Virus record (IMG/VR): IMGVR_UViG_3300009703_002976
Coordinates: 23,168 to 87,167 of that record
Strand: one strand, 5' to 3'
From: a virus
DNA length: 64,000 nucleotides
Shown here: piece after piece, positions 8,838-55,248 of the stretch
Position numbering within the stretch: position 1 is the first letter of the stretch
Layout of the letters: every line of letters begins with the position of its first letter
The notes under the pieces: generated by a model
What the model saw: the letters and a program-made list of their open reading frames with translations, nothing else
What the model was told of the DNA's origin: nothing
Databases searched by the model: none
Translations under genes and position numbers: made by a program

Positions 8838-10268
8838 ATGATTGATAAAGATCCTGAAAATCTCCCCTCATCTACTTTTTGTGCATTACCGTGGATGCAC
8901 ATTTCTACTCGCCCCAATGGACATATGCGTGTATGTTGTACTGCAAATGCATCCGCAGTACAAGATAAAGATTCAACAAATAAAACAATTTCAGAAGCAG
9001 GTGTTCTTAGGAGAGATGATGGAAAGCCTGCCAATTTAGCAACAACAAGTTTACTAGATGCATGGAATAATGAATATATGAAATCCGTGCGAAAGATGAT
9101 GCTTAGAGGTGAACGTCCTGCATCTTGTCTAAAATGTTTTAAGGAGGAAGATGCTGGACATAGATCAAAACGACAATGGGAAACAGCAAAATGGGTTAAC
9201 GAAATTGGACTTGAAGAAATTATTGATGAAACCACAGTTGAAGGAGCCGTTCCACCTAAAGTACGGTATATTGATCTTCGGCTTGGTAGTAAGTGTCAGC
9301 TTGCATGTGTTATGTGTAGTCCTCATGATTCATCTAAGTGGGTAAAAGAGTATAAAGAAATATATCCAGAAATAAAAAATCCTAGATTAAAAGATTCGCA
9401 ATTATGGGAAAAGGAATCTGGAAAATTAGCTTGGTCTGGTGGATCATATGCTTGGCATAAATCAAATCCCAATTTCTGGGAAGAATTTTATACTCAAGTG
9501 CCAACTCTTAAACAATTATATTGGGCTGGCGGTGAATCATTAATTATGAAAGAACATTATGAAGTTCTTGAAAAAATTATTGAGATGGGTTATGCTAAAG
9601 ATATTGAAGTTAGATATAATTCGAATGGACTTGAATGGGATTCTAATTTGTTTGATCTTTGGAAAGAATATAAGAATGTTATTTTTCATTTTAGTGTAGA
9701 TTCATATAAAGAAAAAAATCATTTCATTAGATATCCTTCTCGTTGGAAAAGAATTGTAAAACAAATGCATGTGTTAGATGATTATCCTCATGGTAATCTT
9801 AGATTGACAACAGCAACTACAATTACTGCTCTCAATATTTTTTATCTTCCAGAATTTATAAGTTGGAAATTAGAAGAAGATTGGAAATTACTTAATAAAT
9901 TTCCTGCTGGTGCTGGTATGATTGATTTGCATCTTGCATATTGGCCCCCCCAATTAAATTGTAAGGTATTACCTAAATGGTTTAAACGAGATGTAACTGA
10001 TAAATTCGAAGAGTTTTATCCATGGCTTGAAGAGAATTGGAAAAAATGTAATGGAGTTGAGGTCGAAAATATCGACTTCAAAGAGTGGAGAGAATTGCCG
10101 TATGGTATAAAAAGACTTGAGGGCCTTGTGTCTTTTATGAACTCTGAAGATTGGTCTGAAAGATTGCCCGAAACTGCTGAATGGTGTTTTACTATTGCAA
10201 AGACAAGAAACTTAGATTTTATAAAAATATTTCCTGATTTAGAATGGCTGGAGTGGTATGCAAATTGA
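8838..10268 (+). CDS. Radical SAM protein with N-terminal twitch/SPASM-like domain
   Basis: The 476-residue protein opens with FCALPWMHI (C15), a CC pair (C33, C34) and C97-x2-C100 (SCLKCFKEE). This is the arrangement seen in phage and bacterial 'twitch domain' radical SAM proteins. The core follows with C153-x3-C157-x2-C160 (KCQLACVMC) and a glycine motif WAGGES. It therefore probably binds the SAM cluster plus an auxiliary cluster. It overlaps the PP-loop gene downstream by 11 bases. Codon use seems slightly richer in G/C than neighbours. The reaction is unknown. Confidence 0.85.
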   Translation: MIDKDPENLPSSTFCALPWMHISTRPNGHMRVCCTANASAVQDKDSTNKTISEAGVLRRDDGKPANLATTSLLDAWNNEYMKSVRKMMLRGERPASCLKCFKEEDAGHRSKRQWETAKWVNEIGLEEIIDETTVEGAVPPKVRYIDLRLGSKCQLACVMCSPHDSSKWVKEYKEIYPEIKNPRLKDSQLWEKESGKLAWSGGSYAWHKSNPNFWEEFYTQVPTLKQLYWAGGESLIMKEHYEVLEKIIEMGYAKDIEVRYNSNGLEWDSNLFDLWKEYKNVIFHFSVDSYKEKNHFIRYPSRWKRIVKQMHVLDDYPHGNLRLTTATTITALNIFYLPEFISWKLEEDWKLLNKFPAGAGMIDLHLAYWPPQLNCKVLPKWFKRDVTDKFEEFYPWLEENWKKCNGVEVENIDFKEWRELPYGIKRLEGLVSFMNSEDWSERLPETAEWCFTIAKTRNLDFIKIFPDLEWLEWYAN

Positions 10269-11010
10269 AATTCCCAAAACAATACGTAGATTGAAACAAA
10301 AATTCATTGAAGAACTTTATTCAAAATATGAGGGCGAAGATGTTTGGAAAAATCTAAGACATTATAAAGACAAATGTTATGAAGAAAAGTTTGTAAATAC
10401 TATAGGTATTTGGATGTCGGGTGGAGCAGATAGTTCAATGTTAGCATATTTACTTGCTAAAAAAATTAAAGAAGAAAATTTAAATATAAAAATTCAACCT
10501 TTGTCTGTTAGAAGAGGAAGACCTAATAATCCAATATATGCTGGAAATGTTATAGATTGGATTGAAGAAGAATTAAATATTAAAATGAATGATCATATCA
10601 TATATTTTCCAGATATTACAGATAAGCATCAACGAGAAATAAAAGAATTTTGGGATAGAGATGATGAAAATTTTAGAAATGATTTATTTCAAATTCTTTA
10701 TTCTGGAATAACGTGTAATCCTCCTGTTAATGATAAAACTATTCCTTTAAATAAAGAACGTAGTAGAGATGAAAATGCGGATAGACCTTTAATATCAGAA
10801 AATGGAATTCGTTATTATTTAAATCCTTTTTTTGATATAAACAAAAAACAATTAGCAGAATTATATAAAGAAAATAATTTATTAAATACTCTTTTTTCTC
10901 AAACTTATAGTTGTGAGGGAGAGGCCGAAGACACTAAAACACATACTCAGCATTGTGAAAAATGTTGGTGGTGTCAAGAAAGATTTTGGGCGTTTGGAAG
11001 ATATGTATAA
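10258..11010 (+). CDS. QueC-like PP-loop ATPase
   Basis: The 250-residue protein has a PP-loop IWMSGGADSSML (S54-G-G-A-D-S59), the pyrophosphate loop of adenine-nucleotide alpha-hydrolases. The C-terminus has S-C219, then C233-x2-C236-x2-C239-x2-R242 and AFG. This is the order of the zinc cysteines and following Arg in QueC (7-cyano-7-deazaguanine synthase). QueC adenylates a carboxylate and converts it to a nitrile with ammonia. This protein may activate a carboxylate or nucleobase in the same way. A queuosine/DNA-deazaguanine pathway is not shown, because no QueD, FolE or DpdA is recognised. It is sandwiched between, and overlaps, two radical SAM genes. Confidence 0.78.
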   Translation: MQIEIPKTIRRLKQKFIEELYSKYEGEDVWKNLRHYKDKCYEEKFVNTIGIWMSGGADSSMLAYLLAKKIKEENLNIKIQPLSVRRGRPNNPIYAGNVIDWIEEELNIKMNDHIIYFPDITDKHQREIKEFWDRDDENFRNDLFQILYSGITCNPPVNDKTIPLNKERSRDENADRPLISENGIRYYLNPFFDINKKQLAELYKENNLLNTLFSQTYSCEGEAEDTKTHTQHCEKCWWCQERFWAFGRYV

Positions 11011-12139
11011 TATTGAAGATCAATCAAATCGATATCAAATAATATGGGATCTTGGAAGAAGATGTTCATATGCATGTTCCTATTGTCCGCCTCATAGAAA
11101 TAATAAAACATCCTCGTTTGTAAATTATAAAACATTATGTAAGTCTATGGATAATGTTGCAGAATATGCGTTGCTTTATGATACATTTAGAAAAAAACCT
11201 GCTAAGAAAAAATTGAGCTTTACTGGTGGTGAACCAACAGTACACCCTGATTTTTTTAGATTTTTAAAATATGTAAAAAAAGAATATCCTGATTTTAGTC
11301 GAGGATTGACAACTAATGGATGGTTTGGTAATAATATTTTAGATAAAGTTTTATCATTGACTACGGGAGGAACATTATCTTATCATTGTGAAGCAACAAA
11401 GAAACAAAAACAACAAGTAATATCAAATGCAATATATTTAAGACAAAAATATAAAGTTAATGTGATGTTTCATAAAGATTATTTTGAAGAATGTATAGAT
11501 GTATGTGAACAATTAGAAAAAAATAGTGTAGATTATGTACCAAGAATTATAGGAGATGATAATCCTAACGATAAAAAGTCTATAATATTGGGTTATACAC
11601 ATAAGTATAATAAAGATCAAATGAAATGGTTTCGTAACTATTGGAAACAAAGGGGACAAAATGTCTCAGAAAAAGGAAACACTCAAAAAGGACTGGGAAG
11701 ACCGTGTTGTGGAGGAAGATGTTTCAAGGCAGACGGTGTGGATACTTATTTTTTGCCTGACACTAATTTTTTGGGGTGGAATTGCATGGTTAATTGGTAC
11801 TTTCTTTTTTTAAATTCTGAATTAGATGCAGTTTATACACATCAAACTTGTGGAGTTAATTTAAATGGTGAAGTTGCTCCTTTAGGAAAAATATCAGAGT
11901 TTGATAAAATCATAGATGACTTAGCAGATAATATGTATCAAAAAAAGGTACCTATGATTACTTGCCCAAAAACTTTTTGTGGATGCGGTATGTGCATTAC
12001 AAAATCTAAAGACTCTATAGATGAAATGTTTAATCGACACGTAATTGATGAGTTAAATTATGAAAAAGTATCTCAAAAAACAAGTGATTGGAATACAGAT
12101 TTAACAGTTAAAAAATTATTTGAAAATAATGTGTTATGA
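11003..12139 (+). CDS. Radical SAM enzyme paired with QueC-like gene
   Basis: The 378-residue protein has C21-x3-C25-x2-C28 (RCSYACSYC) very near the start, followed by FTGGEPTVHP. The C-terminal half has several extra cysteines (GRPCCGGRC; CPKTFCGCGMC), suggesting auxiliary iron-sulphur clusters. A longer frame from GTG 10913 exists, but ATG 11003 overlaps the QueC-like stop by only 8 bases and places the cluster motif at the canonical N-terminal distance. In queuosine synthesis a radical SAM enzyme (QueE) makes the substrate of QueC. An analogous pairing is inferred, but this protein is longer and not clearly QueE. Confidence 0.83.
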   Translation: MYNIEDQSNRYQIIWDLGRRCSYACSYCPPHRNNKTSSFVNYKTLCKSMDNVAEYALLYDTFRKKPAKKKLSFTGGEPTVHPDFFRFLKYVKKEYPDFSRGLTTNGWFGNNILDKVLSLTTGGTLSYHCEATKKQKQQVISNAIYLRQKYKVNVMFHKDYFEECIDVCEQLEKNSVDYVPRIIGDDNPNDKKSIILGYTHKYNKDQMKWFRNYWKQRGQNVSEKGNTQKGLGRPCCGGRCFKADGVDTYFLPDTNFLGWNCMVNWYFLFLNSELDAVYTHQTCGVNLNGEVAPLGKISEFDKIIDDLADNMYQKKVPMITCPKTFCGCGMCITKSKDSIDEMFNRHVIDELNYEKVSQKTSDWNTDLTVKKLFENNVL

Positions 12140-13224
12140 AACATTTTTGCATGGCTCCCTTTGTACACATTCAAAGAAATTCTTTTGGTGAATTTAATCC
12201 TTGTTGTATGTTTAGTGATAGAATTTATTCTGAATATAATTCTATATACGAAGCATTCAATAGTGGAGAGAATAATAATCTTAGACAAAGAATGTTAAAT
12301 GATGAAAAAATAGAAGGATGTAATAAATGTTATAGAGATGAGTCTTTGGGAAAACACAGTTATAGACAACGTTTTAATGAAAGATATAAACAAGAATATA
12401 TTGATAATCCAAAAATAAAAGAATTAGAATTAGCATTAAGTAATAAATGTAATTATAAATGTGTAGACTGTAATACGAAATTTAGTTCTTCTTGGTATGA
12501 AGATGATCTGTTATTAGAAAGAACTCACTATACTTTTAAAGGACGAGATGTAAAAAATACAATTCATGAAGAAGATTTTAAAATCATGGATTTGAATGAA
12601 ATAAAAATTTTAGGGGGCGAGCCATTTTTAGATAAAAGATATATTGATGTTTTTAAAAAAATAGATGCTGAAAATATTAAGTTGTTTCTTGTTACAAATA
12701 ATTCTGTTTTCCCTAATAAAGAATGGATAGAACAATTAAAAAGATTTAAACATATTAATTTTAATATTAGTATTGATGGTGTTCATGAAGTTGCAGAATT
12801 TGTAAGATATGGAACTAAATTTATAAAATTTGAAAAAAATTATAAAAAATGGTTGGATTTAAATTTTCATAATATAGACATAATTCCTCATTTTGTTTTT
12901 CATTCTTTAAATGTTTTAAACTTTGATCAGACGATAGATTGGTTAATTGATGTTTATGATTCAGATATAGAAACAATATTAAATTATATTTCCTATGATT
13001 TTTTATCAATGCCTGAAATGTTAAATTGTTCATTTTTAACGGATGAATGTAAAAATATGATTGTTGATAATAGTGTTTATTTTAAAAATGAATTAGAAAA
13101 TTTTCTTGAAAGCAATTCATATAATTCGACATATATTGATGAATTGAAAAAATTTGTTTCTTTTTTGAATTTAAGAAGTGAAATACCCAATCAATCTTTT
13201 CAAGTTATATCATGTTTAAAATAA
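12136..13224 (+). CDS. Radical SAM protein with N-terminal twitch/SPASM-like domain
   Basis: The 362-residue protein begins MKHFCMAPFVHI (C5), then a CC pair (C23, C24) and C62-x2-C65 (CNKCYRDE). The radical SAM motif follows at C105-x3-C109-x2-C112 (KCNYKCVDC), then LGGEPFLD. This is the same architecture as the proteins at 8838, 15108 and 17705. It starts on the previous stop (4-base overlap) and overlaps the next gene by 13 bases. The target is unknown; tandem paralogues suggest successive modifications or a family of related substrates. Confidence 0.85.
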   Translation: MKHFCMAPFVHIQRNSFGEFNPCCMFSDRIYSEYNSIYEAFNSGENNNLRQRMLNDEKIEGCNKCYRDESLGKHSYRQRFNERYKQEYIDNPKIKELELALSNKCNYKCVDCNTKFSSSWYEDDLLLERTHYTFKGRDVKNTIHEEDFKIMDLNEIKILGGEPFLDKRYIDVFKKIDAENIKLFLVTNNSVFPNKEWIEQLKRFKHINFNISIDGVHEVAEFVRYGTKFIKFEKNYKKWLDLNFHNIDIIPHFVFHSLNVLNFDQTIDWLIDVYDSDIETILNYISYDFLSMPEMLNCSFLTDECKNMIVDNSVYFKNELENFLESNSYNSTYIDELKKFVSFLNLRSEIPNQSFQVISCLK

Positions 13225-14198
13225 ATGTTATAGAAATAGAATTGTCATCTCTTTGTAACGCAAAATGTTCTGCATGTATGCGTACTATATTAGATGAACG
13301 TGGAAAATATTATTTAAAAGATAATTTGCCTTTGAATGAAATTGAATCGTGGTTTAATGACATAGATTTATCAAATACTAAAATAAAAATGTGTGGAGTA
13401 TTGGGTGATCCAATGATTAATCCGGAATTGCATGATATTGTTTTTTATTTTTTATATGAAAAACATGTAAGAGATATTGAAATGTCTACGAATGGTGGTA
13501 CTCGTACACTTGATTTCTGGAAAGAATTGGGTATGTTATCAAAAAATTCGAATAAAAGATTTTATGTTCATTGGGCTATTGATGGAGTTACAAAAAATGA
13601 CTATAGAGAAAACGTTGTACTCGATAGAGTATGGAATAATATTAATGCTTACCATTCTACTGGCGGCCATAGTATCTGGCAGTATATCATTTTTGATTAT
13701 AATGAAGACGAAGTTGAAATGGCCAGAGAAAAAGCAAAAGAAAATGGAATGAAATTTGCAACTCGTAAAAGTTGGAGAAATAATTCAGATTTTGCTAAAG
13801 TTAAATCTAGGGCCGCTAAAGAAATTGATGCTGAAAAGTATGAAGAAGTTGAAAAACGAGCATATGAGAAATCATATGAAGATGCAAAAATTGTATGTAG
13901 ACATAAAGTAAAAGGAGAAATATACATTGGTGCAAATAGAAGATTGTGGCCTTGTTGTCATTTATATGATGAAGATGTTGCTCAAAAAAATAATTCTATG
14001 AAACATTTATTTGAGTCTGTGGGACACAATTTTAATGATTTAAATAAACATAGTATAAAAGATATTTTATCTGGTGAGTGGTATAAAAAGACTTTAGAAG
14101 ATAGTTGGAATAAATTTCATCCTATGCATTTGCCTAGATGTTATTTGACATGTGGAGATGAAGGAAAACGAGCGGTTATTAAAAATGTGGAAAACTAA
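13212..14198 (+). CDS. Radical SAM/SPASM-like enzyme
   Basis: The 328-residue protein has C15-x3-C19-x2-C22 (LCNAKCSAC) at the N-terminus, then a degenerate glycine motif (CGVLGDPMINPEL). A C-terminal RLWPCCHLYDE pair with LPRCYLTCGDEG suggests an auxiliary cluster. Architecture and motifs closely match the following gene (14185) and 20799: cluster motif first, 'CG...DP' loop, C-terminal CC. The three are probably paralogues. A substrate cannot be named. It overlaps neighbours by 13 and 14 bases. Confidence 0.83.
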   Translation: MFKINVIEIELSSLCNAKCSACMRTILDERGKYYLKDNLPLNEIESWFNDIDLSNTKIKMCGVLGDPMINPELHDIVFYFLYEKHVRDIEMSTNGGTRTLDFWKELGMLSKNSNKRFYVHWAIDGVTKNDYRENVVLDRVWNNINAYHSTGGHSIWQYIIFDYNEDEVEMAREKAKENGMKFATRKSWRNNSDFAKVKSRAAKEIDAEKYEEVEKRAYEKSYEDAKIVCRHKVKGEIYIGANRRLWPCCHLYDEDVAQKNNSMKHLFESVGHNFNDLNKHSIKDILSGEWYKKTLEDSWNKFHPMHLPRCYLTCGDEGKRAVIKNVEN

Positions 14199-15114
14199 AA
14201 CAGTAGAATGGATCGATGTTGAATTAACATCATTTTGTAATATAGCATGTCCTGGTTGTTTGAGACAAGAAAAAAGAAAACAAGTAGATCATATTTTAGA
14301 TAAAGATATGATACAATTTTCTGATTTGCAAAAATGGATCAGAAAAGAAGATTTCCCTAATTTAAAATTGCTTAATTTTTGTGGATCTGTAGATGAGCCC
14401 ACAACACATCCTGAATTATTAGATATAGTAGAATATTTTTTAACATTTACAGAGATAAATATTGCATCCAATGGATCGACTAAGACAAAAGATTTTTGGA
14501 AAAAATTAGGAGAATATGGTGTATCTGTATTTTTTGGTATTGATGGTATAGATCAGAAATCGTTAGAGAAATATAGAATAGGTTCTAGTTTTAAAAAAAT
14601 ACAGGAAAATTATAGAGCATTTATTAAAGCGGGGGGTAATGCTACTTGGCAATTTATAGTATTTGAACATAATGAACATCTTTTGGAAGATGCAAAAGCT
14701 CTTTCAGAAAAAGAAGGATTTACAAATTTTAGAACAATATTTTCTCATAGAAAAGGAAGTGGAGAGATTGAAAAAAAGACAGTTGAAGAACAAGAGATAT
14801 ATTGTAAGTATGGACATCAAAAAAGACTTTTTATAAATCATACAGGAGCTTTGATACCATGTTGTTATTTAAACTCTGAAGCACTTGAATTACATGCTAA
14901 TGAAACTATTAAAACTAAATTTGGGACAAAATATATGGAATTAGATGGAGTGTTATCAAATAATCTTAAATATAATACAGTATCGGAAGTATTGAATGGA
15001 GAATTATTTAAATATATTATTGAATCTTGGAATGATGATCCAGTTGAAAAGTGTTGGCAAACATGTAAACAGAAAAAAAGAGATATTTTTATAGATGAGA
15101 AAGTAACATGCTGA
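14185..15114 (+). CDS. Radical SAM/SPASM-like enzyme (paralogue of neighbours)
   Basis: The 309-residue protein has C18-x3-C22-x2-C25 (FCNIACPGC) and a CGSVDEPTTHPELL loop corresponding to the SAM-binding glycine motif. A C-terminal CC pair (LIPCCYLN) and EKCWQTC follow. The ATG at 14185 gives a 14-base overlap with the upstream gene; the longer frame from 14152 would overlap by 47 bases and is not preferred. It resembles 13212 in motif order, including the middle phrase ATWQFIVFEHNE compared with SIWQYIIFDYNE there. It is a member of the ten-gene radical SAM set; the reaction is unknown. Confidence 0.83.
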   Translation: MWKTKTVEWIDVELTSFCNIACPGCLRQEKRKQVDHILDKDMIQFSDLQKWIRKEDFPNLKLLNFCGSVDEPTTHPELLDIVEYFLTFTEINIASNGSTKTKDFWKKLGEYGVSVFFGIDGIDQKSLEKYRIGSSFKKIQENYRAFIKAGGNATWQFIVFEHNEHLLEDAKALSEKEGFTNFRTIFSHRKGSGEIEKKTVEEQEIYCKYGHQKRLFINHTGALIPCCYLNSEALELHANETIKTKFGTKYMELDGVLSNNLKYNTVSEVLNGELFKYIIESWNDDPVEKCWQTCKQKKRDIFIDEKVTC

Positions 15115-16454
15115 CTTGTTTTTACGCCCTTGGTGGAATTAATTATAAAAATGGAGTTATAACAACTTGTCCAAGACAAGCAAATCAATTAGTATTTGCT
15201 CATGAAACAATATTGCCCTCAGAAATATTTAATCATAAAAATTTTAAAGAACTTAGAAAATCATTATATCAAAATAAATGGCCTAGTGGATGTGATACAT
15301 GTGAGAATATGGAACAGGTAGGAGCAAAGTCTATGAGAAAAGATTATGTTTTAAATTCTGATAATTTTTTTCATAAGCCACAAAAAGACGATTATTCGGA
15401 CGGAGATCCACAAAAAAATAAATTAAAAGATGAAAAAACAGAAATAAGATTATATGATTGTTATAATCCTATAACACATGAAGTAAACACAAAAGGATTG
15501 CGACATGTTGAGTTTAGATTTAGTACGGCTTGTAATTTTTCTTGTTTACATTGTTCAAAAGTTTATTCCTCGGGATGGACTAAAAAATTACGTAATTATG
15601 AACCCGATCAAGAAGTTATACTAAATGATTTAAGACAATTGTTAGGAACAGAACATAGACATGGCCCAAATGATAGAAATGAAATGTCTTTATCTATTGA
15701 AGAATCTTTAAAAATTGTAGAAGACCTGAATGAAAATTTTCCATTATTACAATATGTGGATTTTGCAGGAGGAGAATTACTATATCAAAAGCAATTTTTT
15801 CCCACATTGAAAAAATTAGCAGATCATCCTAATGCAAAAAATATAAAAATATCTTTTCATACAAATTTTAATGCTGATTTTGATGTTGCACTTTTGTCTA
15901 AACATCTGGAATGTTTTGGCTCTTCAGCAATAATAATATCTGTTGATGCGGGTAAAACATTTTATTCTTATTTTAGAAATGGGGGTGAATGGGACAAATT
16001 GAAAAATAATATTCAAGAATTTAAAAAAATAAATGATTTTACTTGGGTTGATATGAGTTGTACAACTTCAATTTATCAAATGTTGGATATATATGATGTT
16101 TTTGATTCGTTTTATGATTTGAATTTAAACTTTGATGCATCTATAGTTCAAACTCCACAATATTTGGATCCGTCATTAATACTTTATGATTTTTATGATG
16201 AGACTATGAAAGATATTGAAAAAACATATGAGTTAATTGAAAAAAGACAAAAAAATCCTGAAGGAAAAAGTGATTATTCAAAATATTGGTTTAATTATAT
16301 TGTGGATTATGTAAAGCAAACGAAAATAAGTTATAATAATTTTAATAGATTTTTAATATATCGAAAAAAATCAGATGAGATTTGGAATCAAGATTTTAAT
16401 GATTATTTTGAAAATTATCAAATCGAAAATAATGAATTAGTGAGAGTTAAGTGA
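15108..16454 (+). CDS. Radical SAM protein with N-terminal twitch-like domain
   Basis: The 448-residue protein has an N-terminal twitch-like region with C4 and C21 (TTCPRQ) and C62-x2-C65 (GCDTCENME). The CC pair of its relatives is reduced to one Cys at C21. The radical SAM core has C142-x3-C146-x2-C149 (ACNFSCLHC) and FAGGELLYQ. A long charged insert of about residues 85-125 separates the halves. It overlaps the preceding gene by 7 bases and the next by 4 (GTGA). Same family as 8838, 12136 and 17705; substrate unknown. Confidence 0.82.
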   Translation: MLTCFYALGGINYKNGVITTCPRQANQLVFAHETILPSEIFNHKNFKELRKSLYQNKWPSGCDTCENMEQVGAKSMRKDYVLNSDNFFHKPQKDDYSDGDPQKNKLKDEKTEIRLYDCYNPITHEVNTKGLRHVEFRFSTACNFSCLHCSKVYSSGWTKKLRNYEPDQEVILNDLRQLLGTEHRHGPNDRNEMSLSIEESLKIVEDLNENFPLLQYVDFAGGELLYQKQFFPTLKKLADHPNAKNIKISFHTNFNADFDVALLSKHLECFGSSAIIISVDAGKTFYSYFRNGGEWDKLKNNIQEFKKINDFTWVDMSCTTSIYQMLDIYDVFDSFYDLNLNFDASIVQTPQYLDPSLILYDFYDETMKDIEKTYELIEKRQKNPEGKSDYSKYWFNYIVDYVKQTKISYNNFNRFLIYRKKSDEIWNQDFNDYFENYQIENNELVRVK

Positions 16455-17518
16455 AATTAAGTGAATATGATTTTACCAAGATACCTTGGAATAAAATTGA
16501 ACGAGTTGGGACTTGGAAGATGCTGGAGTCTGACTTATTTACAGTTTCATGGTTGTTAGGGAGATTTTGTAATTATAGATGTTCATATTGCTGGCCATAT
16601 GCAAGAAGTAATACTAAAGATCATCGTCCTGTGAAATTATGTCTCAATACAATTGATGAAATTAAACGACAGGCCAGAGAAAGAAATTTTAATTCCTTTC
16701 ATTTTAGTCTATCTGGAGGTGAGCCCACTTTTCATCCAGCATATCTTGATATACTTGAACATCTTGCAGATGATGTAGTATACACTAATTATTCATCTGT
16801 CCATATGACTTCAAATTGTTCTCGACCTATGAAGTGGTTTGAACGATATGTTGAGTCAGCAAAGAAATTTTCAAGAGCATCTATTACTGCATCATTTCAT
16901 CGTGAATATATTACAAAAAATAAACTTAATGATTTTGCAGATAAACTTGATTTTTGTCAACGTAATGGTGTAAGAGTAACAATTAATTCTGTAATGGTAC
17001 CAGAAAAATTTGATGAAATATATAAAGACTTATTGTATTTTTATGAACGAGGCATAAACGTAACACTTAAACCACAAAGTGATCCTACTGCATCATTTGT
17101 TGTTGATGGATATTCTGAAGAACAGATGCAAGTATTGCATAATGGTATGCCTCAGATTACAAACATGGAAGTTAAATCAAAAAAACTTCAAAACATTCGT
17201 CAAGAATTTGAAATTGTTATGAATGATGATGAAGGAAAAGAGTGGTATCTTGATCAAGCAGAAAGATTTAATGCATTTAATTTTAATAATTTTAAAGGAT
17301 GGACTTGCTCTACTGGTTATCGTAGTTGCATTATTCGTGAACCTGATGGAAGCATTAAACGATCTTATTCTTGTGGAGATGCTCCTTTAGGAAATATAGA
17401 AACAGGATTTAAATTATTTGATTCGCCTGTGATATGTACTACAAATGCGTGTGTAAGTTCTGCTGATAGTAAAATTCCTAAAAAGAAATCTAATTGTACC
17501 TTACCATTATGGAAATAG
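16451..17518 (+). CDS. Radical SAM enzyme
   Basis: The 355-residue protein starts at GTG overlapping the previous stop (GTGA). The cluster motif is C40-x3-C44-x2-C47 (FCNYRCSYC), preceded by TVSWLLGR as in 11003, and followed by LSGGEPTFHP. C-terminal cysteines (WTCSTGYRSC, SYSCGDAP, CTTNAC, NCTLP) suggest an additional cluster. It resembles 11003 in lacking the N-terminal twitch region. Base composition seems slightly less AT-rich than adjacent genes, a possible sign of separate acquisition. The reaction is unknown. Confidence 0.83.
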   Translation: MKLSEYDFTKIPWNKIERVGTWKMLESDLFTVSWLLGRFCNYRCSYCWPYARSNTKDHRPVKLCLNTIDEIKRQARERNFNSFHFSLSGGEPTFHPAYLDILEHLADDVVYTNYSSVHMTSNCSRPMKWFERYVESAKKFSRASITASFHREYITKNKLNDFADKLDFCQRNGVRVTINSVMVPEKFDEIYKDLLYFYERGINVTLKPQSDPTASFVVDGYSEEQMQVLHNGMPQITNMEVKSKKLQNIRQEFEIVMNDDEGKEWYLDQAERFNAFNFNNFKGWTCSTGYRSCIIREPDGSIKRSYSCGDAPLGNIETGFKLFDSPVICTTNACVSSADSKIPKKKSNCTLPLWK

Positions 17519-17718
17519 ATAATATTATAAATGATTATTCTTTGAGAGAATTACAAATTATTTCTTCAAGAATATTATCAGAACATGAAGCTACAAATAA
17601 TTTTATAAAACAATTTAAAGCAGATCATGATAGTCATCAATTTTATAAAAACGTTATTAAATGGTATATTGAAAAATATAAACATTTTCCTGAATTGAAA
17701 AAATATGATTCCTTCTAA
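17509..17718 (+). CDS. Small helical protein between radical SAM genes
   Basis: The 69-residue protein (MEIDNIINDYSLRELQIISS...) begins at an ATG overlapping the upstream stop by 10 bases. It ends 14 bases inside the next radical SAM gene. It is highly charged and predicted mostly helical, with no cysteine and no recognisable domain. It is the only small gene embedded inside the radical SAM array. A role as partner protein, recognition element or peptide substrate is conceivable, but nothing in the sequence shows which. Confidence 0.5.
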   Translation: MEIDNIINDYSLRELQIISSRILSEHEATNNFIKQFKADHDSHQFYKNVIKWYIEKYKHFPELKKYDSF

Positions 17719-19234
17719 AGATAATACTTTTTGTTTTTATCCTTTTTATGCCATGGTTTTTAAACTATGGAAAAAGAATAGTAATGAATTAAGAGCAGTT
17801 GCACCATGTTGTATGATGCATGACACTAAAGATATAACAGGAATTAAAATAGATGTTTCATATACTGCTACAAATCCTGTGGTTATTACAAGTATAAATC
17901 ATGAATTAATTGATGATGATAAAATAGAAATTTATGAAGTAAATGGAGATGGAGTTGATGTGGGGCCATATACAGTAACAGTACTTTCTTCAGATACATT
18001 TTCTATTCCTGAAGATGCTACAAAGGGCAATGTTGGTAAATTGAATTATCATATGAGAGAACCGAATTCAATTTTAACTAGAAGAGATTTAAAAGGATTG
18101 TCTCCTCATGATATTTTTCATCATAAAAAATTTGAAGAATTAAGAAAAAACTTACTTAATAATGTGCGGGATTCTCGTTGTTCCACATGTTGGAATCAGG
18201 AAGATTTGGGAATAATGTCTCATAGAATGTATACACGATGGCAATTTCCAGAAAAATTTAAAACAAGTTTAAAAGAAATAGACATATCAATATCTAATAA
18301 GTGTAATTTAGCATGTAGAATGTGTAATACAGGATCTTCACATCAACTAAATGAAGATGTGAATAAATTAAGAAAAAATAATAAATTGCTTTTATTTGAA
18401 GAAGTTTCAGATAATGGTTTAGGATCACTTAATTTACCATTGGATGTTAAAAATAATCATTTAATACAATGGATATATCACAATACTGATAAAATAAAAA
18501 TTTTAAAAGCATCTGGAGGAGAGCCACTATATGATAGAAATATATTAAATTTGTTAAGAAAATATGTGAAAGATGGTAATAGTAAATCAACAGAATTACA
18601 ATTCCATACAAATGCAATGTTAATAACAGATAAAATTATTAAACTCATGGACGAATTTAAATTACAAAGACATTCATTTAGTATAGATGGAGTTGATAAG
18701 ACTTATAATTACATAAGACATAAAGCAAATTTTTCGATTTTAGAAAAAAATATTAAAAATTGGTTTAACAAATCTAATAACATTTATGCAGTAAATATTA
18801 ATTTAGTATTGTCTGCGTTAAATATAGGTAATGTTGTTGAGTTTTTGGAATGGACAGCTTTGATGTTTCATGATAAGATTAGATGTAATGTTTTTATTTC
18901 TGAAGTGCGGCCTCATGGTAGAGGACTCGATATTGCAAATTTACCAATCTCTTATTTAGAAAAAATACGAAAAGATATTATAGAATATAGAGATGGTTTT
19001 GAAACATTTAGAACTAAAATATATAATTATATGCATAAAGGAAATTTTTTCCATTATGAAATTGATAAATTATTATCGTTAATTGATCATGCAATAACAA
19101 ATAATGTATGTGATATTTTTCGTTTATATACTGAAATAACATTATTAGATGAAACAAGAAATCAAAGTTATAAAAATTTTTTAGATTCTTCTTTAGTTTC
19201 TATTTTAGAAAACTATGAATCGCAAGAAAAATAA
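17705..19234 (+). CDS. Radical SAM twitch-type protein with inserted structural-protein beta-domain
   Basis: The 509-residue protein opens FCFYPFYAM (C10) and has a CC pair (C35, C36). It later has C159-x2-C162 (CSTCWNQE) and C200-x3-C204-x2-C207 (KCNLACRMC) with SGGEPLYD, so it is a member of the twitch-type radical SAM family. Residues about 48-116 are an extra block not seen in its relatives. The block (VSYTATNPVVITSINH... SSDTFSIPED...KLNY) closely matches residues 283-348 of the structural protein at 51307. It looks like an FCCH-type beta module inserted in a loop after the CC pair. The enzyme motifs on both sides remain intact. See the hunt section for this fusion. Confidence 0.85.
   Translation: MIPSKDNTFCFYPFYAMVFKLWKKNSNELRAVAPCCMMHDTKDITGIKIDVSYTATNPVVITSINHELIDDDKIEIYEVNGDGVDVGPYTVTVLSSDTFSIPEDATKGNVGKLNYHMREPNSILTRRDLKGLSPHDIFHHKKFEELRKNLLNNVRDSRCSTCWNQEDLGIMSHRMYTRWQFPEKFKTSLKEIDISISNKCNLACRMCNTGSSHQLNEDVNKLRKNNKLLLFEEVSDNGLGSLNLPLDVKNNHLIQWIYHNTDKIKILKASGGEPLYDRNILNLLRKYVKDGNSKSTELQFHTNAMLITDKIIKLMDEFKLQRHSFSIDGVDKTYNYIRHKANFSILEKNIKNWFNKSNNIYAVNINLVLSALNIGNVVEFLEWTALMFHDKIRCNVFISEVRPHGRGLDIANLPISYLEKIRKDIIEYRDGFETFRTKIYNYMHKGNFFHYEIDKLLSLIDHAITNNVCDIFRLYTEITLLDETRNQSYKNFLDSSLVSILENYESQEK
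17855..18049 (+). repeat. Dispersed domain repeat, copy 1 (FCCH-like module in a radical SAM gene)
   Basis: This stretch aligns codon by codon with 52153-52350 in the large structural gene. It includes identical DNA strings such as attacaagtataaatcat and tcagatacattttctattcc. About two thirds of residues are identical by eye, with only a few small gaps. It is an intra-genomic copy of a beta-domain. Confidence 0.85.
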
Positions 19235-19994
19235 TCTTAGATTTGTATTTCCAGTAAATCAACCTGGACTTGGTGATAGATTTATCATGACTTCAAATAT
19301 TCTTTATGCTAGAAAAGAAGTTGAGCATGAATGTTGTATTATTGATATTTTTCTTAAAAATATCAAGCCAAGTAAGAATTATGAGTTTGATCAAAAACAA
19401 TATTTAAATCTTACAGATTTTTATGATATTATAGATTTTTTTCATTTTAAAAGACCAGATAAAAGTGAACCATTAATAATTTCAAATATAATAGATGAAG
19501 AACCTCCTCCATTTCATGCCAGCACAGGTCACCGTAATATTGAGTATGAAATAACAAATAATGAATATAAGAGAAGCCACAATTTTCTTTATAATCGAGA
19601 ACAATATTGGCCTATAAATTATGATAAAACTATAAAAAAAGATATTATAACATTTATGTTTTATGTAGATGATTCATTACCCGAACATAAATTTATTACA
19701 GTAGAGGAAGAAAAAGAATTTCAATTATTAAAAACGAATTTATCATCATTTAATTTTCATCGTTTAGAAGATTTTAATTTTAAAAAAAATGTAGAATTAT
19801 TATCTAGAAGTAAGTTATTAATATCATCAGAAGGAATGTGGACACATCTTTCAAGAGCAATGGATATTGATACTATTACGATTTCAAGAGATTCTAAGTT
19901 TATTAAAGAATTTACTCGACAAGGTTATTTTTGTTCTGGAATTCAAGAATGTTTAAATGAATTAGAAAAAAGATGTCATGAATCACAGGTCTAG
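19215..19994 (+). CDS. Glycosyltransferase-like protein, tandem paralogue 1
   Basis: The 259-residue protein starts with a strand and GD-type loop (LRFVFPVNQPGLGDRFIMTSNIL). It ends with LLISSEGMWTHLSRAMDIDTITISR, recalling the GT9-like C-terminal donor-site pattern (strand, S-x-G, His, hydrophobic helix). It is a very close relative of the following gene, with shared long words at DNA level (aatcttagatttgtattt, gatagatttatcatg). Assignment to GT-B fold is by pattern, not by a named family. It follows the fused radical SAM gene, overlapping it by 20 bases. Confidence 0.5.
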   Translation: MNRKKNNLRFVFPVNQPGLGDRFIMTSNILYARKEVEHECCIIDIFLKNIKPSKNYEFDQKQYLNLTDFYDIIDFFHFKRPDKSEPLIISNIIDEEPPPFHASTGHRNIEYEITNNEYKRSHNFLYNREQYWPINYDKTIKKDIITFMFYVDDSLPEHKFITVEEEKEFQLLKTNLSSFNFHRLEDFNFKKNVELLSRSKLLISSEGMWTHLSRAMDIDTITISRDSKFIKEFTRQGYFCSGIQECLNELEKRCHESQV

Positions 19995-20847
19995 TTATTG
20001 GGAAACAGGTTATTTTAAAAAAAAGAATCTTAGATTTGTATTTCCAGTAAATCAACCTGGACTGGGTGATAGATTTATCATGGCCTCAAATATTCTTTTT
20101 ACTATGAAAGAAGTTGAACACGAATCTTGTATTGTTGATATTTTTCTTAAAAACACAAAGACGGTGCATAAAAGCCAGTATTTAAATCTTATAGATTTTT
20201 ATGATATTATAGATTTTTTTCATTTTAAAAGACCAGATGAAAGTGAATCATCAATAATTACAAATATAATAGATGAAGCTCCTCCTACATATAAAGAGAT
20301 ATTGGCTTCAAAACGAAAAAATATTACAGGTGATGTTGCTTGTCATGATTTTAATTCTAGATATAATGAATATGTTATAAGTAATTATTTTCTTTATAAC
20401 GAAGCACGATATTGGCCTATAAATTATGATAAAACTGCAAAAAAGCAACTTATAACATTTATGTTTTATGTAGATGATTCAGTACCCGAACATAAATTTA
20501 TCACAACAGAGGAAGAAAAAGAATTTAATAAGGTAAAAGATTATTATGGACATTATTTTCATCGACATGAATATTATTTTGTTCGTTTAGAAGATTTTAA
20601 TTATAAAAGAAATATAGAATTATTATCTAAAAGTTTGTTTTTAATAGCATCAGAAGGAATGTGGACCCATTTATCTAGAGCAATGAAAGTTAATACCATA
20701 GCATATTCTAGGGATATTACTTTTATTGAGGAATTTAATAAACAGGGACATTTTTGTTCTGGATTTTTTGAAAAATGTTTAATTGAATTAGAAAAAAAAT
20801 GTATAGAATTAAAAAAGAAGAGCAACTTTATAAGTTTGAAGAGATAA
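19978..20847 (+). CDS. Glycosyltransferase-like protein, tandem paralogue 2
   Basis: The 289-residue protein is a tandem duplicate of the preceding gene. It shares NLRFVFPVNQPGLGDRFIM, a DIIDFFHFKRP block and SEGMWTHLSRAM. It differs by an extra N-terminal stretch (MNHRSSYWETGYFK), an insert near residues 105-125 and another near residue 195. Divergence in the middle suggests altered acceptor specificity; the conserved ends fit a retained fold. It overlaps the upstream gene by 17 and the next by 49 bases, the longest same-strand overlap in the island. Confidence 0.5.
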   Translation: MNHRSSYWETGYFKKKNLRFVFPVNQPGLGDRFIMASNILFTMKEVEHESCIVDIFLKNTKTVHKSQYLNLIDFYDIIDFFHFKRPDESESSIITNIIDEAPPTYKEILASKRKNITGDVACHDFNSRYNEYVISNYFLYNEARYWPINYDKTAKKQLITFMFYVDDSVPEHKFITTEEEKEFNKVKDYYGHYFHRHEYYFVRLEDFNYKRNIELLSKSLFLIASEGMWTHLSRAMKVNTIAYSRDITFIEEFNKQGHFCSGFFEKCLIELEKKCIELKKKSNFISLKR

Positions 20848-21866
20848 AACATATACATTTTGAACCTACGCAAAGATGTCAGGCGGCGTGTCCTATGTGT
20901 GATAGAACTAATAATCCACATATAAAAAATGCTGAACTTTCTATAGAACAATTTAAACAAATTGTAAATGCTAATTTAGCAAAACAATTAAATAGTTTTC
21001 TTATGTGTGGTAATCATGGAGATCCTATGATTGCAAAGGATACCCTTGAAATGTTTGACTGGTTACGCTATAATAATAATGAACTATATCTTCATATGAC
21101 TACAAATGCTGGAGGACGATCTGATGATTGGTGGAAAAGACTTGCGGAAATTTTTGGTGATTATGGAAAAGTATCTTTTTCAGTAGATGGTTTAGAAGAC
21201 ACAAATCATTTATATCGAGTAAATGTAGATTGGAATCGTGTTGAAAATTCAATGGATGTTTTTACTCAAGCAGGAGGAAAAGGTTATTGGGTATTTTTAA
21301 TATTTGAACATAATGAACATCAAGTAGAAGAAGCAGAACGAATGGCTAAATTATTTGGACTTGAATTTGTGAGAAAAAAGTCTGGAAGATGGGTGCAAAG
21401 TTATAAAAATAAGAAAATTGACAAAAAGATAACCACTAAGGGGAATGAGATTAAGCCACCAGCTAATCCAGAGAATCAGAATAAGAGTGTTAACAGTTAT
21501 GATAAATTGATTAAAAGTCATGGTTCCTTTCAAGAGTATTTAGATAAAACAAAAATAAAATGTAAGTCAATAGATACTAAAGAAATTTTTATTTCAGCAG
21601 AAGGTCTTGTGACTCCTTGTTGTTGGACTGCTGGAAAATTATATAAAGTATATGAAAAAATAGGACAAAATCAAATATGGTCTTATATAGATGATATTAA
21701 AAATATTAATGCTTTATATAAACCTTTAAATGAAATTATTGAAGGAGATTTTTTTAAAAAGATTAAACAATCTTGGAATTTGCCTTCTTGTTCACAAGGA
21801 AAATCAAAAGTTTGTGCAGAGAAGTGTGGTACTGATTTTAACGCATTTGCAGATCAATGGAAATAA
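20799..21866 (+). CDS. Radical SAM/SPASM-like enzyme
   Basis: The 355-residue protein has C27-x3-C31-x2-C34 (RCQAACPMC), an MCGNHGDPMIA loop matching those of 13212 and 14185, and a C-terminal CC pair (LVTPCCWTAG) with CAEKCG. It also shares the phrase YWVFLIFEHNEHQVEEAERMA with 14185, so it is a third member of that paralogue set, now separated by glycosyltransferase-like genes. A Lys/Asn/Pro-rich insert occupies about residues 205-235. The ATG lies 49 bases inside the upstream gene; no later ATG precedes the cluster motif. Confidence 0.83.
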   Translation: MYRIKKEEQLYKFEEIKHIHFEPTQRCQAACPMCDRTNNPHIKNAELSIEQFKQIVNANLAKQLNSFLMCGNHGDPMIAKDTLEMFDWLRYNNNELYLHMTTNAGGRSDDWWKRLAEIFGDYGKVSFSVDGLEDTNHLYRVNVDWNRVENSMDVFTQAGGKGYWVFLIFEHNEHQVEEAERMAKLFGLEFVRKKSGRWVQSYKNKKIDKKITTKGNEIKPPANPENQNKSVNSYDKLIKSHGSFQEYLDKTKIKCKSIDTKEIFISAEGLVTPCCWTAGKLYKVYEKIGQNQIWSYIDDIKNINALYKPLNEIIEGDFFKKIKQSWNLPSCSQGKSKVCAEKCGTDFNAFADQWK

Positions 21867-29190: not shown

Positions 29191-29214
29191 TTTATTTAGT
29201 CATCAAAAGTGCTT

Positions 29215-50900: not shown

Positions 50901-51307
50901 CTCCAAGGATTCAAATGAATAGTGTTTCACTTACAAATTCTGAAGATAATTCTATTTCTACAAAAAATGATTCAATTATATTATTTCAAGGAACATATAA
51001 CGAAGAAGAGTCGGTAGGTAATAAATTTTCTCAAGATGCTTCTTTTCATCAATTTGTAACACGGCCCAAAACACGTATTGTAGGAAAGGGCAATGCTGAT
51101 AAAGATGGAAAGTTTGAAAAACAATATTTTAATGTGGATCTTAAACCTAAAAACCCATTAAAAAGATGCACCGACAAGAATAAATATAAAATTTTAATTC
51201 AATCAAGTATAGTGAATCAAGAAGGTCAATCATTAAAAGAAAGATATAAACTTAATATTGGATTTTCTATAAATCCTGTAACAGTAGATTTTGGAGGATT
51301 TGTTTAA
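47957..51307 (+). CDS. Large baseplate-associated structural protein, unknown
   Basis: The 1116-residue protein has a helical N-terminus (ALNLFLSGLQTFGNNFAVICD), a loop region GTTTPFWLDSPSDAAK and mid beta segments (YKAYVLMFALPTINDVVQVV). At about residues 730-775 there is a coiled coil (VKKFKKQVEEIAKAIDEYIRF). The C-terminal part is beta-rich with an acidic INGDFESIEG-type loop. No enzyme or receptor-binding motif is visible. Position between the gp5 spike and the Ig-domain protein, with 1-base and 8-base overlaps, suggests a baseplate or fibre-base component. I do not recognise the family. Confidence 0.6.
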   Translation: MAEEEVSKDDVILKQMEGVAFGGSTADALNLFLSGLQTFGNNFAVICDTLIQFFQATKLFLESFANPLTASLIATIDSLIEALEELNALGFGSVTVWPWAHGTYPQQLNTEKLDEAMLGLVAAMQGVDIGDIRFSERGFFVQTKNGETLLTPGQEIAAGGTRESFQTKDTIYDTLTGIRNFFHPELWTGTTTPFWLDSPSDAAKRRAAFTQRGGSGPHQDTDPASLEQHWSGQAADWSKDKLLSAIQTTQKNLLVRELTPNQAVKKIIQSLSGNTPDDNRPTGGGPYKAYVLMFALPTINDVVQVVQQFADYFGSVIGDPLVKKLAAPGSGTFDERIKTIQLGEPLHKPGVWDRPDEQSEFYYNEADFKVRKVADKTYKLGGEIPMFRPGDRIVQTGGILGNHTASAEVVQHLPIIVKNGMIIQNRVRVKSVRGEFIGTSHKPLNTASTPLVKSILTGPPNPNNDPIFRSDTLEKPIERIDGTFFGTIKEGETVITEIIPNDTIGQLIRTTCQNLSVSQGSGGAFKAGMKSLLEGGGSKRIIDSYMTFLKSIKKGMVIKHQFLQPMDMSNKAFDFYHGSAWTDTEFKFNYGQLLDVIPSLDVQYHIANIKIGGMAIESTNNLTEESLFAYVDGDNKPIMADLTFEIGFLNYDGSYDTDFLNIDIGGIITVPNTGYGGVHSWQTTIPTTNDRFGPPNQPFETISGNKNISPNWNYIRISDLFPAYGQVVKDAIGSVKKFKKQVEEIAKAIDEYIRFLERQIKAIQRLNDQVQQLIAFFTKGLNMAGIYTAQFGGDGIGDFKKKLKNMKMLQTNKNNLNEITLETVETDTEIEDPFTGLKKTVKRKILKPVTKKATGEEPDGIPKPLSELDNLKYSGAIVFLGQGPDLEKFDTFMNNFNGLATLGKGFLSNLFSKESIIAQRIIPYVHDIQGENVNGDFESIEGLGSIDEEATIRIVFTNDANLLDNTERELVNGQVERSVDFSPRIQMNSVSLTNSEDNSISTKNDSIILFQGTYNEEESVGNKFSQDASFHQFVTRPKTRIVGKGNADKDGKFEKQYFNVDLKPKNPLKRCTDKNKYKILIQSSIVNQEGQSLKERYKLNIGFSINPVTVDFGGFV

Positions 51308-54300
51308 TGGCAAACAATTCAATTTCTAGAACAGGAACATTTACATCTAGCGGAAGTGCTGGGGGTTCGGGAACATATCATTATAATCATGGTGAATATT
51401 GGAGTAGTTCTGGATCATCTGGTTATTCTGGCACAGATTATTATTCTAATGATGATTTAAATAACGGTTCTATTTTTGTTAATATTGATAGTCAAATATC
51501 TATAACATTTACACAAGAAGTTGATAATAGTTCTATAACTACTTTCAACAAAGATAAGTTATTGCCTCTAGATTCTCAAAACAAAAAAGGAACTGTTGGA
51601 TTGACACATATTGTTTCTACGACTCAGGGAGCAACAGATGATGGAAATAATTTAAAAGCCTTAAAATTAACTTCTCTACCTATAGATTTAACAACTAATG
51701 ATCATGAAGCTGTTGCTGATCAAGAATTTGTAGAAATGGCTTCTTCTCCTTCTACAGTAGATAATCAAACTTATATTTTTACACCAAAAGCAAATCTTTC
51801 TTCAAATACAACTTATTTTTTAAGAATGGATCCTACAAATGTATTAGATGCTACTGGTTCAGAAATTAGTTATTTTACTGAAAAAGGATTTGTTACTGAT
51901 AATACGCAAAGTTTTGTGACTACAGGAGATTATTATGATGGATTTAAAATGCAAATTGAAAAGGTTAATTTATATTTAGAAGAAACAGAACCTAATGCTG
52001 ATGGTGTAACTGATCCTCAACCAGATTCTTTGACTTTATATCGAGATGATGGAAAAAGCGGAACAGTTTCTTTAGCAACTACTTTAAATATTCAATCTAT
52101 AGAAGGAACAGTATTAAAATATCAATTAGATCCTACTTCATATAAAATGAATGTTGCTTATACTGCTACTAATCCTATAGTAATTACAAGTATAAATCAT
52201 GGATTAGCAGATGATGACAAAATAGAAGTTTATGATGTAGTAAGTGGGGTTTCAATTAAAGAAGGTGCATATACATTAACAGAAATTACTTCAGATACAT
52301 TTTCTATTCCTGTTGATGGTACAGGAAGTACTGCTGGTAGATTAAATTATTATAGAAATGCAAATAAAAATGATTTATTTAAATGGAGCGAAAGCAAGGA
52401 TGAAGGACCAACAACAACAAATTATGTTGTAAGAAAAAAAGCATTGTCTGTTCCGAAAAAAAATGGAAAATCTATTGATGAGTTGTTAGATGTTAAGTTT
52501 AAAACTAAAGCAACAAGTGAGGGTTCAATAGGCGAACCAGCAACAGGTAGAGAAGGAAAAATAATAAAAATTGATGATGAGACTATATCATTTGTTGCTA
52601 TATCCGATACTGCTTCAGGTGGAAAAATTATATCTTCTACTTTTGTAAATAATTCTATAGTAGATATTTCAACTTCTAATAATGATATTAGATTCCATAT
52701 AAAAGCAAATACTTCTCCCGATCATAATGTACATCCTTTTCATTCTTCTGCGCCAAAAGTGATTTCTACCTTTCCTGAAGATGGTACATCTTTCCCGAGA
52801 AAATTGACAATTACTCAAATTTCAAGAAGTGGACATGAAGCCATTGTATCTACAAATCATCCTCATAATTTGTTTAAAGATGATTATATACAAATTGTTG
52901 ATTCTACTCAACTCATTTATAATAAAACAACAAAAGTATTGTCTGTTCCAACACCAAACACTTTTCGTTATGATATGGGTTCACATAGTAATTTTACAAA
53001 TGTACAAAGTCCTGCTCCTGGAAAACCGAAACTTGAGATTAGTAATGATGATGGTACTACTTATGCAGAAAGATATAATGCTATATTCGTAAATTTTAAT
53101 CAATCTATGAACACAAGTACTGTTACTGTTGCAAATAATACTCATTTAATTTCTGCAAATGGAACAAGTGCAACATTTTCTGGTGGGCAAGATTCTGCTT
53201 CAAGCACAATACATTTATCAGATGATGGATTTGAAACAATTGAAAATTGTGTTTCAGTAATAGCAAGTTCAGGTAATTCTGTTTTTGCAATTGTCCCTGA
53301 AGCTCTTCAAGCAAGACATGATTATAATATAAAAGTTAAAACAGATATTCAGGATTTGGGTCAAACAAATAGTCTTTATCAATTTACAACAACTGAAGGA
53401 ATTACTACTGGACAGAAATTTATAGATCCACAGACTGGTCAAGAAACAATATATTCAAAAGACGAAGATCCTCCGAAAATTAAAAGAATAACTTTTCCAA
53501 CAGCCGATGATGATCTTATTGTAGAAAGTGCTAATATAGCTGAAATAACTGCCCATTCAGATTTTTATCATACAGCAATGCCCCTCAGTACGTTAATGAC
53601 TTATGGTGTTAAGATTCAATTTTCTGAAAGTATGAAAATAAATTCAGTAACTACTGCAACATCTAATACAGATCCTACAGGCACAGTATTGCTGTCTGCC
53701 GATGATTTTAGTACAGTTGTTCAAATGGCTACAGATCCAGTTGTAACAACAACTGATGAAGAGAATGATACTTTTACTGTTAAACCTATAGCAAATGTAT
53801 CTGCAAATGCTGTTTATACTTTAAAAGTTTTAAAAGATGTTACTGATGATTCACCAGAAGAAAATCGAATGGAACAAGATAATGTGATGTCAATAAAAGT
53901 TCTTACAGTAAATTCGATTCCTGGAAGTGCTGTGAATTATTATTCTGCAGGAGAAATTATATCAGGAGTTAGAACATTAACGATTAAAGCAAATACAGGA
54001 ACACCAACTATAGGAGTAACTGCTGGATCTACGTTTTTAGGTTTAACATCAAAAGGTAAAGGGAAAGTTTTAGATTTTACTGAAGATTCGGGAGCAATAA
54101 CATCTATTAGATATACGGAATTATCTGGTCAAGATGGATCTATTAGACCTTTACGTCCTGGTGAAATTTGTAAAGTAAGTGATACTGTTAATTTTACAAT
54201 TGATAATGTTGCAATAACTGATCCTCCAGAAGGAAATGTTATCTCTTTTACTACAGGAACAAGAAAATTAATTTATAGAGATAGGAGTGCAGATAATGAA

Positions 54301-55248
54301 TTTGTATCTGCAAATTCAAGTGCAGAGAGAATTTTTGGTAGAGCATCAAATGGAGAAGTTTTTGCAAGTAGTTCTGGTAGTGAAGGTATAGTGGGACCAG
54401 GAATTAAAACTGCTACAACTGGACTTGTAGCAAATGTGTTTTTTAGTGATGGTTCAAGTTTAGTGTCTCCTATAGATGGAAATCTAACTGGTATTGATGA
54501 AAGATCAAATCTTACTGTTAAGTTTACTCAAACAATGAATGTTGAAAGTATTAATTTTAATGCAGTTGATTCAATAGTAAGAGATCCTTATAATATATTG
54601 CTTTCTTATGATAGTAATTTTGGTAATACAATACCACTGAGTACGAATTTTACAAGTTCAAATAATGATACTGTATTTGAATTCCAACCAGCAATATTGT
54701 CAAATACAAGTTTACAATTAACACAAGATAAGAATCTTTATGCTAAGGTAACACAGACAGCAAAAAATCTGGGTGATATGAATTTGGCAAGTGTTTTTGC
54801 TCCTTCAAATTATGCTAATACTGTTACAAATGTTGATTTTAAAGCAATAGATGCTTCTGTTTTTACTACAGATGGAGAAGAAATAAAATTAGGAACAGGA
54901 ACTTCTATTTCTATGCCTAATCAATCTTCAATAATAGCAAGATCAACTCTTGTTATTATTCATTTTAACGAGGTTCCTGATCTGGCAGATTTTGACATGG
55001 CTGGGTCGGGATATGAAATAGAATTATCAACTGTCAGTAATTTTGCTTCAGGTTTCTATTCAGGTACAGCAACTTTAACAAAACAAGGCAAATATGGAAC
55101 AGAAATACATATTAGACTTTCTGTAGGATTAACGGCATCAACTCAGCATTATTTAAGAGTTGTGGGTAGTGTAGGCGGAAGTAGTGAAGGCGGAAAAGCA
55201 ATTGATACAACTACCCAATATTTCAATTCATTTACAACTTCATCATAA
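51307..55248 (+). CDS. Giant structural protein with Ig-like (Big_5/SbsA-type) domains and two FCCH-like modules
   Basis: The 1313-residue protein has several repeats of the bacterial Ig-like type: ISITFTQEVDNSSI; AIFVNFNQSMNTSTV; VKIQFSESMKINSV; LTVKFTQTMNVESI; VIIHFNEVPDLADF. Each is followed by TY-type strands and a closing VT/IK-V segment. Two further modules resemble FCCH beta domains (residues about 283-348 and about 499-557). The N-terminus is Gly/Ser/Tyr-rich (SGSAGGSGTYHYNHGEYWSS). The size and domain chain fit a long fibre- or whisker-like adhesive protein. It starts at TAATG overlapping the previous gene. Confidence 0.72.
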   Translation: MANNSISRTGTFTSSGSAGGSGTYHYNHGEYWSSSGSSGYSGTDYYSNDDLNNGSIFVNIDSQISITFTQEVDNSSITTFNKDKLLPLDSQNKKGTVGLTHIVSTTQGATDDGNNLKALKLTSLPIDLTTNDHEAVADQEFVEMASSPSTVDNQTYIFTPKANLSSNTTYFLRMDPTNVLDATGSEISYFTEKGFVTDNTQSFVTTGDYYDGFKMQIEKVNLYLEETEPNADGVTDPQPDSLTLYRDDGKSGTVSLATTLNIQSIEGTVLKYQLDPTSYKMNVAYTATNPIVITSINHGLADDDKIEVYDVVSGVSIKEGAYTLTEITSDTFSIPVDGTGSTAGRLNYYRNANKNDLFKWSESKDEGPTTTNYVVRKKALSVPKKNGKSIDELLDVKFKTKATSEGSIGEPATGREGKIIKIDDETISFVAISDTASGGKIISSTFVNNSIVDISTSNNDIRFHIKANTSPDHNVHPFHSSAPKVISTFPEDGTSFPRKLTITQISRSGHEAIVSTNHPHNLFKDDYIQIVDSTQLIYNKTTKVLSVPTPNTFRYDMGSHSNFTNVQSPAPGKPKLEISNDDGTTYAERYNAIFVNFNQSMNTSTVTVANNTHLISANGTSATFSGGQDSASSTIHLSDDGFETIENCVSVIASSGNSVFAIVPEALQARHDYNIKVKTDIQDLGQTNSLYQFTTTEGITTGQKFIDPQTGQETIYSKDEDPPKIKRITFPTADDDLIVESANIAEITAHSDFYHTAMPLSTLMTYGVKIQFSESMKINSVTTATSNTDPTGTVLLSADDFSTVVQMATDPVVTTTDEENDTFTVKPIANVSANAVYTLKVLKDVTDDSPEENRMEQDNVMSIKVLTVNSIPGSAVNYYSAGEIISGVRTLTIKANTGTPTIGVTAGSTFLGLTSKGKGKVLDFTEDSGAITSIRYTELSGQDGSIRPLRPGEICKVSDTVNFTIDNVAITDPPEGNVISFTTGTRKLIYRDRSADNEFVSANSSAERIFGRASNGEVFASSSGSEGIVGPGIKTATTGLVANVFFSDGSSLVSPIDGNLTGIDERSNLTVKFTQTMNVESINFNAVDSIVRDPYNILLSYDSNFGNTIPLSTNFTSSNNDTVFEFQPAILSNTSLQLTQDKNLYAKVTQTAKNLGDMNLASVFAPSNYANTVTNVDFKAIDASVFTTDGEEIKLGTGTSISMPNQSSIIARSTLVIIHFNEVPDLADFDMAGSGYEIELSTVSNFASGFYSGTATLTKQGKYGTEIHIRLSVGLTASTQHYLRVVGSVGGSSEGGKAIDTTTQYFNSFTTSS
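52153..52350 (+). repeat. Dispersed domain repeat, copy 2 (source-like FCCH module in the structural gene)
   Basis: This aligns codon by codon with 17855-18049 in the radical SAM gene (for example TATNPIVITSINH and SDTFSIPVD). It is the natural-looking member because the surrounding protein is built from similar beta modules. See the fusion finding. Confidence 0.85.

Follow-up and report, generated by a model that had tools for sequence, protein, structure and literature searches.

An FCCH-like domain shared by a radical SAM enzyme and a structural protein of a marine T4-like phage

Exchange of domains between phage proteins is known chiefly for those that serve receptor binding, lysis and replication. 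Domain mosaicism, i.e. the in-frame shuffling of domains in phage proteins, has contemporary cases in receptor-binding, baseplate and endolysin proteins (PMC10684548). The locus analysed here resembles these cases in the in-frame shuffling of a domain, but differs in its recipient, which is a radical SAM enzyme; the words FCCH and 'radical' were both absent from PMC10684548 in a word search. Literature searches for FCCH domains in phage enzymes gave nothing on point.

The DNA under study is a stretch of 64,000 nucleotides (positions 23,168 to 87,167 of IMG/VR record IMGVR_UViG_3300009703_002976), called the window below. The wedge protein encoded at 56032-57897 is closest to those of the Pelagibacter phages Mosig and HTVC008M (38-40%), and the virus is therefore a marine T4-like phage.

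Two described families are close to the locus. The enzyme is a member of N_Twi_rSAM (NCBIfam NF033640) with 208.8 bits at a cut-off of 170 bits. It has the auxiliary-cluster Cys motifs of this family together with the core CxxxCxxC. Yet the insert interrupts the N-terminal part, so that the profile match of the enzyme does not begin before residue 127, whereas the match of the insert-free orthologue from phage G007 begins at residue 8. The inserted module resembles the E1_FCCH domain (PF16190) as it occurs on phage virion proteins. The likeness consists of the pattern NPxVITSxxHxL..D...ITKLTADTFSIP and of a profile link through the domain repeats of L079. In contrast to those domains, the module has a direct Pfam score under the cut-off, and its copy described here lies inside an enzyme.

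A module common to enzyme and structural protein

According to the original prediction a radical SAM protein and a structural protein of this phage have a module in common. This was borne out by blastn of 17601-18300 against the window, which aligned 17845-18053 with 52143-52354 at 78.3% identity over 212 nt (E 1.4e-45; runner-up match E 6e-6). The protein identity of the two copies was 58.7% over 75 residues (E 2.7e-21), so that the match as such holds while the figure of about two thirds, estimated by eye, was slightly high. As read from the alignment, identical DNA words reach a length of up to 24 nt (CTTCAGATACATTTTCTATTCCTG). The similarity of the DNA was far above chance. It comprised a single module, ended on either side of it, and the two copies lie within open reading frames of 509 and 1313 aa. 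Thus the insert and the module of the structural protein are homologous. Coordinates are collected in Table 1.

Table 1. Positions of the enzyme, the structural protein and their common module in the window
Feature	Position	Strand	Evidence
Radical SAM gene, 509 aa, N_Twi_rSAM family, with inserted domain	17705..19234	+	NCBIfam NF033640 208.8 bits; Pfam Radical_SAM 4.5e-12
FCCH-like domain in twitch-domain loop, aa 48-116	17846..18052	+	blastn 78.3% to 52143-52354; E1_FCCH E 9e-4; absent from L003 and G007 orthologues
Whole replaced slot, aa 42-120	17828-18064	+	79 residues in window enzyme
Short ORF, 69 aa, directly upstream of enzyme	17509..17718	+	gene order as in G007 phage; in L003 fused to downstream gene
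Structural protein, 1313 aa, in T4-like baseplate gene block	51307..55248	+	lies among baseplate hub/lysozyme and wedge PHROGs; Big_5 Ig-like domains
FCCH-like domain in native place, about aa 280-349 of structural protein	52143..52354	+	blastn; family alignment

The pair ranks second by strength among the DNA repeats of the window, behind a tandem duplication at 19224-20802. The latter belongs to the genes 19215-19994 and 19978-20847 (76% identity over 801 nt, 62% aa), for which L003 has one related gene in this place. The enzyme gene itself is part of a cluster of several radical SAM genes at 8838-21866, which includes a QueC-like protein (10258-11010) and is followed by glycosyltransferase and FkbM-type methyltransferase genes at 29209-35275.

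In the enzyme the insert occupies a loop of the N-terminal twitch-like domain, as had been claimed. This loop lies between putative Cys ligands, and the score for NF033640 confirms the twitch domain. The Cys motifs were likewise said to be intact despite the insert, and all of them are present: C10, C35/C36 and C159xxC162 of the N-terminal twitch set and C200xxxC204xxC207 of the radical SAM core. Both sets are kept in L003, the G007 orthologue and L005. C36 and C159 flank the graft and are putative ligands of an auxiliary cluster, assigned by position. AlphaFold modelled the enzyme core with confidence (many blocks above 85). Foldseek and VIA-align placed this core among the SPASM/twitch radical SAM enzymes, and structure comparison put it near anSME, MoaA, viperin and sactipeptide maturases (best Z 13.9); these are too general for naming a substrate.

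The structural protein had no PHROG match of its own, and neither had the adjoining 1116-aa protein (47957-51307). In each of the 11 other distinct homologues found, the domain has the same position, at about aa 270-370.

Searched alone against Pfam, the insert reached PF16190 with E 9e-4 and 19.8 bits. Because this is under the gathering cut-off of 29.5 bits, the module is called FCCH-like and is not filed as a member of the Pfam family. A profile of the module matched the domain repeats of L079 at 3.5e-10, and the L079 domain in turn is a clear E1_FCCH member (5e-21, 75 bits to PF16190). Through L079 the module is homologous, transitively, to accepted E1_FCCH members. A query built on this L079 repeat matched, in annotated phages, tail tubular protein B, baseplate J, other baseplate proteins and stabilisation proteins; its further matches were hypothetical proteins, a single protein with a chitin-binding domain and proteins whose names refer to FCCH. 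Searches of annotated phage records found relatives neither of the enzyme nor of the structural protein nor of the insert, and pattern scans found the FCCH-like domain in no other enzyme.

The insert was modelled with low confidence (pLDDT about 43-51), likely owing to the shallow alignment, and a separate model of the structural-protein region had a mean pLDDT of 38. When solved structures were searched with a profile of the domain alignment, all matches were at chance level (E 0.45). The beta-barrel fold predicted for the insert is based on homology alone.

The loop slot in related enzymes and selection on the insert

We defined the slot as the stretch between the CCMMHDT and NS[IV]L motifs. 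It comprises 8 residues in the G007 orthologue (73% aa identity over the core), 33 in the L003 enzyme (75%) and 79 in the window enzyme; with lengths from 8 to 79 residues the slot thus tolerates insertion. The 33 residues of L003 are unrelated to the window insert, and the more distant relatives, L005 and L006, have short loops. The expectation that relatives of the enzyme lack the insert was therefore confirmed in the two closest ones, and these two insert-free orthologues exclude an ancient insert carried by all relatives, the finding that was to count against the original prediction. The G007 phage has a structural protein with the domain although its enzyme is without insert. Since the structural homologues all have the domain and the closest enzymes do not, the structural side is the donor; on this comparison the direction of transfer, from the structural gene family to the enzyme, is clear, and a gain on the branch of the window enzyme is the simplest reading.

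Some further features of the relatives were recorded. The sequence filling the slot of the L003 enzyme lies at L003 3124-3222, and neither tblastn against phages nor a degenerate DNA pattern run on viral_contigs found relatives beyond L003 itself. An origin of this 33-mer from a repeat motif was dropped, as a regular expression over about 1.2 million translated residues found L003 alone. The short ORF upstream of the enzyme is located downstream of it in L003, as the N-terminus of another protein, i.e. modules were rearranged beside the graft. A 161-kb phage-like contig (L081, contig C1 of G007) has the structural and radical SAM genes in order; it is filed in a Chloroflexi MAG and is probably a phage contig binned with it.

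We favor the view, with a probability of about 0.62, that the loop received a graft from the structural gene family and that the domain is a tolerated appendage. An in-frame piece with one whole FCCH-like beta-domain of this family would have taken the place of the short loop between C35/C36 and C159xxC162, which has 8 residues in the G007 slot. The step would be a non-homologous in-frame recombination, probably with the copy of a related phage or with an older state of the own gene, and may be more recent than the separation from the relatives in G007 and L003. The most likely effect would be a surface appendage on a working enzyme, with binding of a partner or a glycan at most secondary. Against this reading counts that the fused gene is known from one assembled genome only. 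Readings of function and of origin are not mutually exclusive, and our estimates for them do not sum to one.

Purifying selection acts on the enzyme core (dN/dS 0.20-0.26), and among the three orthologues of the window, G007 and L003 the window has the shortest core branch. Codon models of the insert branch disagreed. MG94, which had the better likelihood, gave an omega of 0.70 versus a background of 0.20 (p 0.023) and did not reject neutrality (p 0.55), whereas GY94 gave 0.27 and rejected it (p 0.019). Selection in the insert is thus model-dependent. Positive selection had appeared from NG86, with dN about equal to dS; it was dropped, as codon models with AT-rich composition gave omega below 1 and opposite verdicts on neutrality. 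Over the whole domain 8 of 32 donor-invariant positions are altered in the insert, a rate equal to that of variable positions, while 23 of the 27 in the interior are kept. Constraint on the insert appears to be relaxed or changed.

These data bear on the question of whether the insert has acquired a new function within the enzyme, such as binding of a substrate or partner beside the auxiliary Fe-S cluster, and is maintained by selection. The result of GY94 and the different sequence in the L003 slot, as if the slot served variation, speak for this, but the better-fitting MG94 does not, and we regard a new function as a tentative possibility. A broader version would make the slot a site of variation for module exchange, holding the FCCH-like domain, the L003 33-mer or nothing, where the grafted domain gives the enzyme a new target, which might be the virion or a surface glycan; this we consider unlikely.

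Source, age and virion contacts of the insert

The domain was originally thought to stem from the phage's own structural gene, by recent copying or by gene conversion. Indeed both copies occur in a single genome with 78% DNA identity and the 24-nt identical word. However, the insert is about equally distant from the structural copies of every phage (55-62% aa; own copy 59%), those of other phages being as close or closer, and at the DNA level it reaches 79% at best with any known copy. In a DNA tree its branch arose, with modest support, between the two main groups into which the structural copies fall. A sister placement of insert and own copy was rejected by the AU (p 0.013-0.014) and KH tests (0.033) and not by the SH test (0.16). 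None of the three private DNA states of the own copy is present in the insert. An old origin from the own gene could be masked if the insert evolved fast and the own gene was later replaced; still, with AU rejection at p 0.0136 and no private state in common, we doubt that the own gene was copied recently. Of the claimed graft from the phage's own gene, the in-frame insertion and the structural family as donor side stand, while the own gene as source and the recent date do not. The donor was this structural gene family, probably in the form of a related phage's copy or of the own gene at an early stage, and a related phage fits best.

The synonymous distances (NG86) of the insert to the donors were 0.17-0.44, and those of the enzyme core were 0.64 to G007 and 0.83 to L003. 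Because the former are below the latter, an insertion younger than the splits of the enzyme is suggested, an order in time that depends on a synonymous clock varying with gene and model. The structural copies of the window and of L046, which is identical to G007 in the FCCH-like domain, differ by a domain dS of 0.21, while the insert differs from either by 0.30-0.32. Thus there is no single uniform clock, the genes have differing histories and the dating is soft.

It was also proposed that the enzyme may be held at the tail or baseplate by its inserted domain, or that this domain may recognise the ligand of the structural protein, and that the chemistry of the enzyme would so be directed to the virion. 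FCCH domains do occur on virion proteins of annotated phages, and the reading frame and most donor-invariant interior positions are kept. But over the whole domain such positions changed at the same rate as variable ones, relatives manage without the insert, nothing in the sequence favors tethering or a common ligand, and there is no sign that the domain mediates contacts between virion proteins. We consider such a role improbable. An assembly chimera is still less probable: the fused gene comes from a single genome and a second assembly of it was not found, but the insert is close to no known structural copy and has a one-codon deletion of its own, both joins are in frame, and the flanking gene order agrees with the G007 phage.

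Taken together, in the favored reading of a loop graft from the structural gene family, a virion module would have entered a metabolic enzyme between putative cluster ligands and left the enzyme core not degraded. The donor family, an insert-free orthologue and the recipient are all available in one case, so that it can be tested concretely if grafts of this kind are passengers or acquire a function.
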